A stretch of DNA of 36,128 nucleotides. Source: Thermoleophilia bacterium (GTDB taxonomy: Bacteria > Actinomycetota > Thermoleophilia > Miltoncostaeales > Miltoncostaeaceae). The stretch is taken from contig JALOLS010000017.1 in NCBI GenBank assembly GCA_025455865.1, forward strand, positions 1 through 36,128, in the 5' to 3' direction. Within the stretch, counting starts at the first letter, position 1, and the number at the start of each line of letters is the position of its first letter. The position numbers and the translations under genes are program-made. This document shows positions 11,221 to 25,469 of this stretch, one piece after another. The notes below the pieces were generated by a model. That model was not told the DNA's origin. It was given only the letters and a program-made list of their open reading frames with translations, and ran no database searches.

Positions 11221-11553
11221 ATGCCCTCCTCGCCGCTCAGCCTGCGCCTGCCCGAGTCCACGATCGGCCGGCTCGGTGACGTCGCCCGCCGCCGCCAGAC
11301 GCCTCCCCGCACGCTTGCCCAGCGGTACGTCGAGGAGGGACTTCGCATGGATGAGCATCCGCTCGTCCGTTTCGCGGACGGCCCGGCCGGGCGACGCGCG
11401 ACCCTCGTCGCCGGGCCGGACGTCTGGGAGGTCGTCGGGATCGTGCGTGACAACGACGGGGACCTCGACGAGGCCGTGGCGTACCTCGAGATCGGGATCG
11501 CGCGCGCGGAGGCGGCGTGGCGGGCGGGTCAGGCGGCGCTTCGCCGCGGGTGA
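11221..11553 (+). CDS. Antitoxin: RHH-like N-terminus plus DUF433-like domain
   Basis: A 110-residue protein in two parts. Residues about 4-45 (LSLRLPESTIGRLGDVARRR...AQRYVEEGLRMDEHP) resemble a ribbon-helix-helix DNA-binding domain. Residues about 46-95 (LVRFADGPAGRRATLVAGPDVWEVVGIVRDNDGDLDEAVAYLEI) match the DUF433 type antitoxin helix-turn-helix. It overlaps the next gene as GTGA, the usual coupling of antitoxin and toxin, and the partner encodes a DUF5615 PIN-like protein. It would bind and inhibit the toxin and repress its own promoter. The gene itself looks intact although its toxin appears broken. It follows the permease stop by 23 bp without a clear promoter. Confidence 0.75.
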   Translation: MPSSPLSLRLPESTIGRLGDVARRRQTPPRTLAQRYVEEGLRMDEHPLVRFADGPAGRRATLVAGPDVWEVVGIVRDNDGDLDEAVAYLEIGIARAEAAWRAGQAALRRG

Positions 11554-11975
11554 GGCTGCTGCTCGACGAGATGCTCGCTCCCGCCATCGCCCGGGGCCTC
11601 CGTGATCGCGGCCATGACGTCCAGGCCGTCCGGGAACGGCCGGATCTGCGGGGCGCGAGCGACCGGCAGGTCTTCGGCATCGCCCAGGTCGAGCGACGAG
11701 CGGTGGTGACGTCGAACGTGCGCGACCTCCGCCCGTTCCAGCACGAGGCGCTCGGGCCCGGTGGGAGCGGTCACCCCGGGGCTCGTGTTCATCCCGGGAC
11801 GGGACCGAGGTGTGGCTCGCCTGACCGGCGCCGGCCCGGGTGGGGTGCCGACGCCGGCCGGTGCCGGAACGCCCTCCGCAGGCGCCGGGATGATACCCGG
11901 CGGCCCGTCCTCGGAGCTCAGGAGCGCGCGGCGAGCGCCCGGCCCAGGTCGTCGGTGCAGGCGAGCTGGACGTAG
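11550..11975 (+). pseudogene. DUF5615 PIN-like toxin, frameshifted
   Basis: From GTG 11550 (overlapping the antitoxin TGA) the frame gives VRLLLDEMLAPAIARGLRDR, then DVQAVRERPDLRGASDRQVF and AVVTSNVRDLRPF, the conserved order of DUF5615 proteins, which have a PIN-like nuclease fold with acidic residues (Asp-Glu near residues 6-7, Asp in NVRD). Normal proteins continue with HPGLVFIPGR-like sequence. Here that stretch is readable only in the frame reached by removing one G from the run at 11778-11781 (CACCCCGGGGCTC). Without the correction the frame continues as Arg/Gly-rich nonsense and runs into the convergent gene at 11918. Either a decayed toxin or a homopolymer sequencing error; beyond about 11830 neither frame looks like the family. 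Confidence 0.65.
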
Positions 11976-12334
11976 ACCGTCCGGGCGGTGTCGCCGCCGT
12001 TGACGACGGAGCCGCCGCCGATCCCGGTCACCGCGCGCACGCCGGCGCCGGCGTCCTCCATCATGAAGCGGCCCGGGGTCCCGAACACCGTGACGCCGTC
12101 GACCCCCACCAGGCTGTAGCCGTGGCCCGAGAGGCCGGTGCCGTCGAGCAGGTACGGGGTCGCGACCGGGCACTGGGCGGTGGGGAGGGGGATCTGACGC
12201 TTGGCGGGGATGGTCACGTCCACCGTGCGGAAGGACGACTCGGCGGCGGCGGCCGGGGCGGCGGCGCCCGCGAGGGCGGCGGGCAGGAGCAGGGCACCGA
12301 CGAGGGTGCGGCGGAGGGCGGCGGTGCGGGTCAT
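11918..12334 (-). CDS. Small secreted protein, member of a three-gene co-regulated family
   Basis: A 138-residue exported protein of unknown function. The signal peptide covers about 1-31 (MTRTAALRRTLVGALLLPAA...). The mature part has CPVATPYLLDGTGLSGHGYS and, near the end, VYVQLACTDDLG. This ordering (Cys-Pro-x-x-x-Pro-Tyr-Leu, then a C-terminal xxxxCT block) is shared with the two secreted proteins encoded at 24196 and 24874, of which it is a distant relative; the two conserved cysteines may form a disulfide. ATG 12334 follows AGAGGA. Upstream lies the same palindrome-42 bp-GGGACGCT promoter architecture as in the two relatives. It is directly downstream of a NarL-type two-component system, which may control it. 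Confidence 0.8.
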   Translation of the reverse strand: MTRTAALRRTLVGALLLPAALAGAAAPAAAAESSFRTVDVTIPAKRQIPLPTAQCPVATPYLLDGTGLSGHGYSLVGVDGVTVFGTPGRFMMEDAGAGVRAVTGIGGGSVVNGGDTARTVYVQLACTDDLGRALAARS

Positions 12335-12370: not shown

Positions 12371-12437
12371 AGCGTCCCGCGGCACGGCCCCGGCGCCGAT
12401 GGCGGCTCCGCCACACCCGAGGTGGTGCCAGGACCAC
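12371..12437 (-). promoter_or_regulatory. Shared operator-promoter module, copy 1
   Basis: On the plus strand: AGCGTCCC (12371-12378), 42 bp, then GGTGGTG with the palindrome GTGGTGC-CA-GGACCAC (12422-12437, one mismatch between arms). Read in the direction of the gene, the 7-2-7 palindrome is upstream, GGGACGCT comes 42 bp later and the ATG 36 bp after that. The same order and the same 42-bp gap occur at 24750-24816 and 25403-25469. This copy lies between the response-regulator gene and the secreted-protein gene. Confidence 0.75.
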
Positions 12438-12455
12438 ACGGGCCCCGGCGGGCGG

Positions 12456-13118
12456 TCAGCGCCCGGCGCCCTCGTCCCGGCCCAGGTACATGAGCACGGC
12501 CTTCACCCGGCGGTGGTCCTCGGGGGCCGGGGGCAGCCGCAGGGTCCCGAAGATCGCCGCGATGTGGCGGGCCACGGCCTTCTCGGTCACGAACAGGCGG
12601 CCGGCGATGGCCGCGTTGCTCATGCCCTCGGCCATGAGGGAGAGCACCTCGCGCTGGCGGGGGGTGAGGTGGTCCACCGGGTCGTCGCGCCGCCGCCGGC
12701 CGACCATCACCGCGACGACCTCCGGGTCGATGGCCGACCCGCCCGCCGCCACCCGGTCGAGGGCGTCCATGAAGGCGTCCACGTCCATCACCCGCTGCTT
12801 GAGCAGGTAGCCCACCCGCTCCGCCCCCCCGGCCAGGAGCTCCAGGGCGCCCTCCTCGTCGACGTGCTGGGAGAGGACGACGATGGCCGTCTCCGGCCGC
12901 CGGGCGCGGATCTCGAGCGCCCCGCGCAGGCCCTCGTCGGTGTGGGTCGGGGGCATCCGGATGTCGGTGATGACCAGGTCCGGCGCGTGGTCGCGCGCCC
13001 GGCGCACGAGCTCCGGGCCGTCGGACGCCGTGGCCACCACCTCGTGGCCCTCGTCGGTGATCAGCCGAACCAGGCCCTCGCGCAGCAGCGTCTCGTCCTC
13101 GGCGATCAGGACGCGCAC
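12456..13118 (-). CDS. NarL/FixJ-family response regulator
   Basis: A 220-residue two-component regulator. The receiver domain has the acidic pair near residues 7-8 (IAEDE), the phospho-acceptor D52 in VITDIRMP, the conserved Ser at 83 (VVLSQ) and K107 (GYLLKQ). The C-terminal LuxR-type helix-turn-helix spans about 150-207 (LTPRQREVLSLMAEGMSNAAIA...). GTG 13118 lies inside the last codons of the kinase gene (13-nt overlap), so the pair is co-translated. Family members bind 7-2-7 inverted repeats as dimers; a 7-2-7 palindrome lies just beyond its stop codon in front of the secreted-protein gene, a likely target. What signal it answers to is unknown. Confidence 0.94.
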   Translation of the reverse strand: MRVLIAEDETLLREGLVRLITDEGHEVVATASDGPELVRRARDHAPDLVITDIRMPPTHTDEGLRGALEIRARRPETAIVVLSQHVDEEGALELLAGGAERVGYLLKQRVMDVDAFMDALDRVAAGGSAIDPEVVAVMVGRRRRDDPVDHLTPRQREVLSLMAEGMSNAAIAGRLFVTEKAVARHIAAIFGTLRLPPAPEDHRRVKAVLMYLGRDEGAGR

Positions 13119-14776
13119 GGGATCCTCGCCTCCACCGTCGTGCCGGCGCCGGGCGGGGAGTCCACCCGCAGCGTCCCGCCGAGCGCCTCCACCCGGTCGG
13201 CCAGGCCCCGCAGGCCGCTGCCCTGCGCCGGGTCGGCGCCGCCCTCGCCGTCGTCGCTCACCCGCACCACCAGGTCGCCGTCCTCCGCCGACAGACGGAC
13301 GTCCGCCGCGGTCGCGCGAGCGTACTTGACGGTGTTGGCGAGCGACTCGGCCATCACGAAGTAGGCGGTCGCCTCGACCTCCGGGGCGGGCCGGGCGCCC
13401 AGGCCCTCGGCGGCCACCGCGACCGGGATGGGCGTGCGGCCGGCGAGCCACCGGGCCGCCCCCTCGGCCCCGCGCTCCACCAGGGGCGCCGGCATGATCC
13501 CGTGGACCAGGGCCCGCAGCTCGTCGAGGACGTCGGCGAGGCCGCGGGTGAGGTCGCCGGCCGCGACCCGCACCCGCTCCGGATCCTCGGCCCGCCGGGC
13601 GATCCGCTGGGCGTCCAGGCCCAGGGCGACGATGCGCTGCTGGGCGCCGTCGTGCAGGTCGCGGGCGATTCGCCGGCGCTCCTCGTCGCCGGCCACCACG
13701 ATCCGCCGGCGCGACCGGGCGAGCTCGGCGAGCGCGGCGCGCAGCTCGGCGGTCAGGCGCCGCCGGGCGATCGCGAGCCCGGCCACCCGGGCGACCTCGT
13801 CGACCAGGGCCTCGTCGGCGATCAGGCCGGCGTCGTAGACGATCGCTCCCACCACCCGGTCGCGGTCGCGCACCTCGGCCGCCCGCCGGCCCTCGCCCCA
13901 GGGCGGCCCGGCCGGCCGGCCGGCCTCGTCGACCAGCGCCGTGCCGTCGTCCCGGGCGAACAGGACGCGGGCCCCGTCGTCGCCGAGCGCGCCGGCGATG
14001 GCCGTGCGCAGGGCGTCCGGCCCCTCGTCGTCGATGCGGGCCACCAGCTCGCCGAGCTCGCCGGCCCGGGCGAAGCCACCGGACGAGAGGGCGATCAGGA
14101 ACGCGAGCGGAAGGCCCATGAGGACCGGCGTCTGGACCACGCCGACCTCGTCGGCCAGCCCGGTGTCGGCCGCCAGCGCGGCGGCCAGCGTGACGAGCAG
14201 GGCGAGCAGCCCGTAGGCGTCGAGCAGCCGCAGCGTGCGGCGCTCCCGCGCCGGCGCCCGGGCGATCCGCCGGGCCAGCAGCACGATCGCCCCCGCGAGC
14301 GCCCCGAGGCCGACCGCGGCCTGCACGGCGAAGAGCGCGTCGGCCGCCCCCGGCGCGTCGGCCGCCTGGAGCACGCTGTCGCCGGCCAGCAGCCACTGCG
14401 GCACCTGCAGCACGACCGAGGCCGTGTACCCGGCGGCCACCACCGCCCGGGGCGCGCGGCCGTCCACCCGGCCGCTCGGAAACGCCATCAGCAGGTGGAG
14501 GGTCATCGCGAGCGGCAGCGTGTCGAGCACCAGCCCGGCGGCCCGGGGGCCCGGAAGCGCCGCCTCCGAGAGGCCGGAGGCGAGGAACGCCATGCCCGTC
14601 GCCACCATCAGCAGGCCGAAGCGGTTGTGCGGCCGCCGCCAGGCCGCGACCAGGCCGCCGGCGGTGAACACGGCGGCGACCAGCGGCGGGATCACCACCT
14701 CGGCGGGGGTGGCCTCGGGGTTGTCGGCCACCACCGCGGCGGCCAGCAGGATGAGCGCCCCGGCCAGGGCGCCCAC
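13106..14776 (-). CDS. Membrane sensor histidine kinase, NarL-type (HisKA_3)
   Basis: A 556-residue kinase with roughly eight hydrophobic segments in the first 240 residues and no large extracellular loop, so it probably senses something in or at the membrane. A GAF-like linker follows (about 240-330). The catalytic part has the HisKA_3 phospho-acceptor (RDLHDGAQQRIVALG), the N box (ESLANTVKYA), G1 (VSDDGEGG) and G2 (GSGLRGLADRVEALGG). It overlaps the response-regulator gene and is its evident partner. GTG 14776 is the conservative start; a CTG at 14839 overlapping the hydrolase stop, with GGAG before it, would add an Arg-rich cytoplasmic N-terminus that fits the positive-inside rule better. 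Confidence 0.93.
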   Translation of the reverse strand: MGALAGALILLAAAVVADNPEATPAEVVIPPLVAAVFTAGGLVAAWRRPHNRFGLLMVATGMAFLASGLSEAALPGPRAAGLVLDTLPLAMTLHLLMAFPSGRVDGRAPRAVVAAGYTASVVLQVPQWLLAGDSVLQAADAPGAADALFAVQAAVGLGALAGAIVLLARRIARAPARERRTLRLLDAYGLLALLVTLAAALAADTGLADEVGVVQTPVLMGLPLAFLIALSSGGFARAGELGELVARIDDEGPDALRTAIAGALGDDGARVLFARDDGTALVDEAGRPAGPPWGEGRRAAEVRDRDRVVGAIVYDAGLIADEALVDEVARVAGLAIARRRLTAELRAALAELARSRRRIVVAGDEERRRIARDLHDGAQQRIVALGLDAQRIARRAEDPERVRVAAGDLTRGLADVLDELRALVHGIMPAPLVERGAEGAARWLAGRTPIPVAVAAEGLGARPAPEVEATAYFVMAESLANTVKYARATAADVRLSAEDGDLVVRVSDDGEGGADPAQGSGLRGLADRVEALGGTLRVDSPPGAGTTVEARIPCAS

Positions 14777-24749: not shown

Positions 24750-24816
24750 AGCGTCCCGCGATCCGGTCCGCCCGCCGACGGCCCCCGCACCAGCCCCGCG
24801 GTGGTGCCTGCACCAC
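24750..24816 (-). promoter_or_regulatory. Shared operator-promoter module, copy 2
   Basis: Plus-strand order: AGCGTCCC (24750-24757), 42 bp, then a perfect 7-2-7 palindrome GTGGTGC-CT-GCACCAC (24801-24816). In gene direction the palindrome is distal, GGGACGCT lies 42 bp later and the ATG (24711) follows after 38 bp. Identical architecture to copies 1 and 3. Confidence 0.8.
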
Positions 24817-25402: not shown

Positions 25403-25469
25403 AGCGTCCCGCCCCGCGCGTCCCGGGCCGACGGCCGCCGCACCACCGCGCAGGTGGTGCCCGCACCAC
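25403..25469 (-). promoter_or_regulatory. Shared operator-promoter module, copy 3
   Basis: AGCGTCCC (25403-25410), 42 bp, then the perfect 7-2-7 palindrome GTGGTGC-CC-GCACCAC (25454-25469) on the plus strand. In gene direction GGGACGCT is 37 bp before the ATG (25365). A further GGTGGTGC-type half repeat lies within the 42-bp segment of this copy and of copy 2. Confidence 0.8.

Follow-up and report, generated by a model that had tools for sequence, protein, structure and literature searches.

Very probably, the palindrome GTGGTGC-NN-GCACCAC in this Thermoleophilia genome is the docking site of the sensor/regulator pair that adjoins it, a reading drawn from sequence comparison and adopted because in distant bacteria, too, the site lies beside a regulator of this kind. 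We further propose, at a probability of roughly 0.85, that the NarL-type regulator and its kinase act on tandem 7-2-7 sites as a class II activator of a regulon of eight promoters, three of which lie in the window (the whole stretch of 36,128 nucleotides analysed here). In the proposed mechanism, the NarL-type regulator (12456-13118) would be phosphorylated by its membrane-bound partner kinase (13106-14776), the two forming a two-component system, and would bind GTGGTGC-NN-GCACCAC. Each target promoter would accommodate two regulator dimers, one at the strong palindrome, centred near -65.5, and the other at a weaker copy touching the -35-like TCGGC, centred near -42.5, and the regulator would recruit RNA polymerase as a class II activator. 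The predicted targets are three genes of the window, four members of the same secreted-protein family on other contigs, and one stand-alone cyclase-like gene. The predicted regulon and operator are new; the NarL-type two-component system itself is of an already known kind.

The genes of the window that enter this proposal are the following:

13106..14776, minus strand: multi-pass HisKA_3 sensor kinase, 556 aa
12456..13118, minus strand: NarL-type response regulator, 220 aa, recognition helix TEKAVARHIAAIF
11918..12334, minus strand: gene 1, secreted-family member, 138 aa
24196..24711, minus strand: gene 2, secreted-family member, 171 aa
24874..25365, minus strand: gene 3, secreted-family member, 163 aa

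The preliminary description had placed a NarL-type two-component system beside the first palindrome copy, and the domain content bears this out. The regulator combines Response_reg (PF00072, E 2.1e-19) with GerE (PF00196, E 2.3e-11), both above cut-off, and its partner kinase, whose gene overlaps that of the regulator at 13106-13118, combines HisKA_3 (PF07730, E 1.2e-12) with HATPase_c. The multi-pass membrane sensor attributed to the kinase was recovered as six hydrophobic segments in a hydropathy scan. Copy 1 was also correctly located 19 bp past the response-regulator stop, the gene ending at 12456 (minus strand) and the near edge of the palindrome lying at 12437, and in front of the first family member, gene 1, which starts at 12334, 103 nt from the first base of the palindrome.

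NarL binds heptamers arranged 7-2-7 as inverted repeats. The palindrome occurs exactly at 24801-24816 and 25454-25469 and with one mismatch at 12422-12437; the 7-2-7 geometry first ascribed to all three copies is therefore exact in copies 2 and 3 (7/7 arm pairs, 2-bp centre) and imperfect in copy 1 (6/7). At up to three mismatches, the window holds eight matches versus 5.69 expected from shuffles, and weight is therefore placed only on the near-perfect copies. Across the whole 3.16-Mb genome, the palindrome is found six times in perfect form and nine times at one mismatch or fewer, versus means of 0.0 and 3.0, respectively, in a control of ten first-order simulated genomes. The block [AG]TCG[GC][CT] follows 21 nt after eight of these nine sites, every perfect one included; the exception, a one-mismatch site on contig C56, appears to fall within coding sequence.

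Beyond what had been described, the present analysis recognised a second tandem site, -35-like and -10-like elements, and, outside the window, five more promoters of this type. The order is palindrome, a weaker second copy 23 bp on, the -35-like TCGGC, 17 bp, and a -10-like hexamer, and the spacing from palindrome to TCGGC is identical in all eight promoters of the genome. With position 0 set at the first base of the palindrome, site 1 occupies 0-15, the second site 23-38, TCGGCN 38-43, and the -10-like hexamer 61-66, leaving a spacer of 17 nt between the last two; bases 62, 64, and 66 (A, G, T) are invariant in 8/8 promoters, and the start codon lies 98-106 nt from the palindrome. The two element types are putative assignments made by position, and the site centres would fall at about -65.5 and -42.5 relative to a predicted start point. 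Composite promoters at two mismatches or fewer number eight in the genome versus 0.1 expected per genome. Among all offsets tested there, 23 gave the best motif match for the second site (8.5/14) but not the best symmetry, which is poor in most of the promoters (mean 2.75/7 arm pairs). In the window, the promoter elements are as follows:

12422..12437, minus strand: operator site 1 of the gene 1 promoter, GTGGTGCCAGGACCAC, one mismatch; predicted centre about -65.5 relative to the start
12399..12414, minus strand: second 7-2-7 site of the gene 1 promoter, GTGGCGGAGCCGCCAT, weaker, 6/7 arm pairs; predicted centre about -42.5
12394..12399, minus strand: putative -35-like element of the gene 1 promoter, TCGGCG, typed by position
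12371..12376, minus strand: putative -10-like element of the gene 1 promoter, GACGCT, 17 nt after the -35-like element
24801..24816, minus strand: operator site 1 of the gene 2 promoter, exact
24778..24793, minus strand: second site of the gene 2 promoter, weak symmetry, 3/7 arm pairs
24773..24778, minus strand: putative -35-like element of the gene 2 promoter, TCGGCG
24750..24755, minus strand: putative -10-like element of the gene 2 promoter, GACGCT
25454..25469, minus strand: operator site 1 of the gene 3 promoter, exact
25431..25446, minus strand: second site of the gene 3 promoter, GTGGTGCGGCGGCCGT, one perfect half-site
25426..25431, minus strand: putative -35-like element of the gene 3 promoter, TCGGCC
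25403..25408, minus strand: putative -10-like element of the gene 3 promoter, GACGCT

This anatomy bears on two other explanations. Inverted repeats between genes, one of them (copy 1) just past the stop of the regulator, could in principle be RNA hairpins, either terminators or 5' leader elements, instead of protein sites. However, no T-run follows the palindrome on the minus strand, it keeps a set position with respect to the -10-like element and start codon of the gene that follows, and in a further genome described below (G085) it sits between two divergent genes, all of which makes hairpins barely credible. Alternatively, the regulator may bind the site and repress, or act both ways, since the second site touches the -35-like element and could be blocked by a repressor. 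Set against this, of the two sites it is the upstream one that is stronger, the -35 bears little resemblance to TTGACA, and the spacing is fixed, a combination that is usual in activated promoters. NarL also activates from similar positions (PMC7419079). Repression or dual action is thus unlikely, and class II activation is the preferred reading.

Seven of the eight promoters precede members of one divergent secreted-protein family, characterized by a signal peptide, a CPxxxP[YW]L block, and a second invariant Cys; three members sit in the window and four on other contigs. Searching the genome with a family profile recovered these seven proteins and, at E <= 0.001, nothing else; as the seven had themselves been used to build the profile, this shows only that there is no recognisable member without the site. 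Among 42 genomes of the order, no member was found besides the window's own. A class-wide search (399 genomes) gave clear homologues only in G209 (four matches, E 1e-18 to 1e-13), the other hits outside the window genome matching little beyond the signal-peptide end, and the plasmid and viral collections searched yielded no match. In G209 (L046, L062, and L064), the secreted-domain homologues occur partly as repeats inside longer proteins, and the loci show no palindrome at two mismatches or fewer. With respect to neighbouring genes, a sigma-70-family factor gene (L178 5924-6619) ends just upstream of the family member on contig C106, and two small adjacent plus-strand frames at window positions 11222-11800 resemble, by eye, an antitoxin and PIN-like toxin pair, the first without a Pfam match.

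The eighth promoter precedes a gene for a stand-alone cyclase-like protein (G000:C174), read across two contig ends (L173 240 down to 1, then L209 3-488). Its match to PF00211 is partial (20.1 of 21.9 bits), no HTH family was found in it, and the gene stops soon after the cyclase-like domain. Cyclase-LuxR regulators such as Rv0386 carry a cyclase domain fused to a LuxR HTH, and the eighth target falls outside that group. One of these regulators as the true binder was accordingly ruled out: the eighth target is not the regulator, because it is a stand-alone cyclase-like protein without a DNA-binding domain. The presence of a class III cyclase-like gene under the same promoter hints that the regulon includes nucleotide signalling.

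A link between site and regulator comes from other genomes, in which the preliminary description had suggested looking for co-occurrence of palindrome and kinase/regulator pair. An exact scan for the palindrome, N20-22, and RTCGG in the genomes of 84,980 species, from which the window genome's own records may be left out, gave 46 stretches, five of them of Microbacterium type (L078, L089, L095, L096, and L106). Found through palindrome and RTCGG alone, all five adjoin an orthologous kinase/regulator pair, which was visible in the initial loci for four of them and, for the fifth, in an extended stretch (L169). The Microbacterium-type kinase shows 44-45% identity to the window kinase in an alignment that starts at residue 32-35 and includes the membrane part. 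The palindrome lies 130-138 nt before a gene for an unrelated secreted protein; these secreted proteins gave no match to the window family profile and, in the one of the five tested, no Pfam match. Everything past the first site is shifted by one base in these promoters, with the second site at 22 (offset 19 gives a motif match marginally above offset 22, 9.6 vs 9.4) and a -10-like hexamer at 60-65 (TAGCCT in three of five, TAGCGT in two). When the sites were scored with a matrix for the second site and -10 that had been derived from the window genome's eight promoters alone, leaving aside the scan bases, the five loci took ranks 1-5 of 46 scored sites, L099 having been dropped as too short; the C174 promoter scored only -0.3 when left out of training. 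Genomes that keep the palindrome without the two-component system had been named as counter-evidence, and among the 46 scored composites those lacking the system all scored lower for the other promoter elements. In four of the Microbacterium-type genomes, G758 not being one of them and G757 covered in part, the locus holds the only perfect palindrome among the matches listed, and a close regulator was found among 349 genomes of that family only in G758, the source of the query, the next being 54% identical.

Given their mutual relatedness, the five Microbacterium-type loci amount to roughly one independent case; another is G085, a genome chosen by regulator similarity alone. There, a variant palindrome (GTGGAGCCAGCTCCAC), departing from the consensus at 2 of 14 positions, adjoins the regulator with the same spacing: the second site is at offset 23, a -10-like CATACT is at 61-66, and a divergent secreted gene starts 96 nt on. 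The G085 promoter score was equalled by one of 5000 shuffles. In Goekera (L105) and Nocardia (L101), an exact palindrome lies about 0.07 and 2.3 kb, respectively, from a homologous regulator and kinase. Both were set aside as further support, having other helices, regulators outside the clade discussed below (the Goekera tree row is L147), and poor scores for the rest of the promoter (-4.7 for L101; L105 is not among the 14 matches listed). The exact palindrome of Goekera deserti (L105 4760-4775) stands about 65 bp past the stop of this other-clade regulator, and downstream of it lies what by eye resembles a gene for a CPBP-type membrane protease.

In a 50-row tree, the window regulator and the five Microbacterium-type regulators, which had entered through the DNA site and not the protein, form one group with support 96/90, and the regulator of G085, which entered through the protein alone, falls in the neighbouring group. 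The site-bearing regulators have in common the recognition helix TEKA[VI]A[RK], most others carrying [GR]AVEKH; regulators with the common helix are without the site. Aligned to NarL without gaps, the HTH of the window regulator has A, R, and A at K188, V189, and K192, which we take to be the three base-contact positions of NarL. Of 57 regulator loci, each spanning about 3.6 kb at most (30 from a phylum search and 27 more from a class search; helix unparsed in 5/57), only those of the window and G085 had a palindrome at two mismatches or fewer with at least 6/7 arm pairs. Nor did the two other close paralogues in the window genome (C61 and C97) have a site at two mismatches or fewer within the 9 and 14 kb read. 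L125 and L138, with A-K at the same helix positions, had no site within 1.5 kb that passed the filter, a two-mismatch match in L138 being removed for symmetry.

A further possibility is that another, unlinked regulator binds the palindrome and that the two-component system is a chance neighbour or a co-regulated bystander. Only copy 1 adjoins the system, so that control of the other promoters would be in trans; the stretches around the sites on C63, C103, C106, and C108 held no homologue of the window kinase or regulator. An unlinked binder would fit the seven promoters that are not directly beside the system, as it would the sigma-70-family gene ending just upstream of the C106 site and the second, different NarL-type system a few kb from the site in the Microbacterium loci. 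Nevertheless, in each of three lineages the site has beside it a regulator of this clade or of the one nearest to it, no other two-component regulator was recognised beside the site in the window-genome and G085 stretches, and the eighth target offers no DNA-binding domain; an unlinked regulator is thus quite improbable. The five Microbacterium-type loci, the clade at 96/90, and the G085 variant palindrome with its conserved spacing instead support the original proposal that the adjoining pair would control the palindrome genes.

These findings offer a concrete predicted operator and regulon for a clade of NarL-type regulators, with a close parallel in culturable Microbacterium, of which M. 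azadirachtae, for one, carries the locus, and the helix changes may determine which operator each of the many look-alike regulators in this family selects. More tentatively, at somewhat less than even odds, the system may represent a portable secretome switch, in which operator and promoter spacing stay with one regulator clade, distinguished by an altered recognition helix, across distant actinobacterial lineages, and the secreted protein under its control is swapped for unrelated ones; here, the target would have been copied with its promoter into a dispersed seven-member family. In the titles and abstracts of the open-licence literature, we found no description of this operator with a response regulator, nor of NarL with Microbacterium secreted proteins.

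Among known systems, the operators of VraR/LiaR and DevR (DosR) differ in sequence from the window palindrome. VraR (5hev), NarL (1a04), and DevR (3c3w) are the nearest full-length solved structures to the window regulator. The kinase core resembles LiaS, yet the kinase scores only 58.2 of 450 bits for Strep_LiaS. Similarly, MadR of the actinobacterial MadR/MadS system is the best NCBIfam match of the regulator (E 3.1e-29), but at 101.8 bits versus a 300-bit cut-off (NF047785) the regulator is not a member. E. coli NarX/NarL differs in heptamer sequence, sensor domain, and targets, and the regulator, at 95.9 bits, is below the 250-bit cut-off of the NarL equivalog for nitrate response (NF007935). 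The likeness lies in architecture: at E. coli ogt, a receiver and GerE helix-turn-helix protein likewise acts on tandem 7-2-7 inverted repeats, one abutting the -35, with NarL activating from sites at -44.5 and -77.5 and being able to do so from one at -67.5 (PMC7419079).
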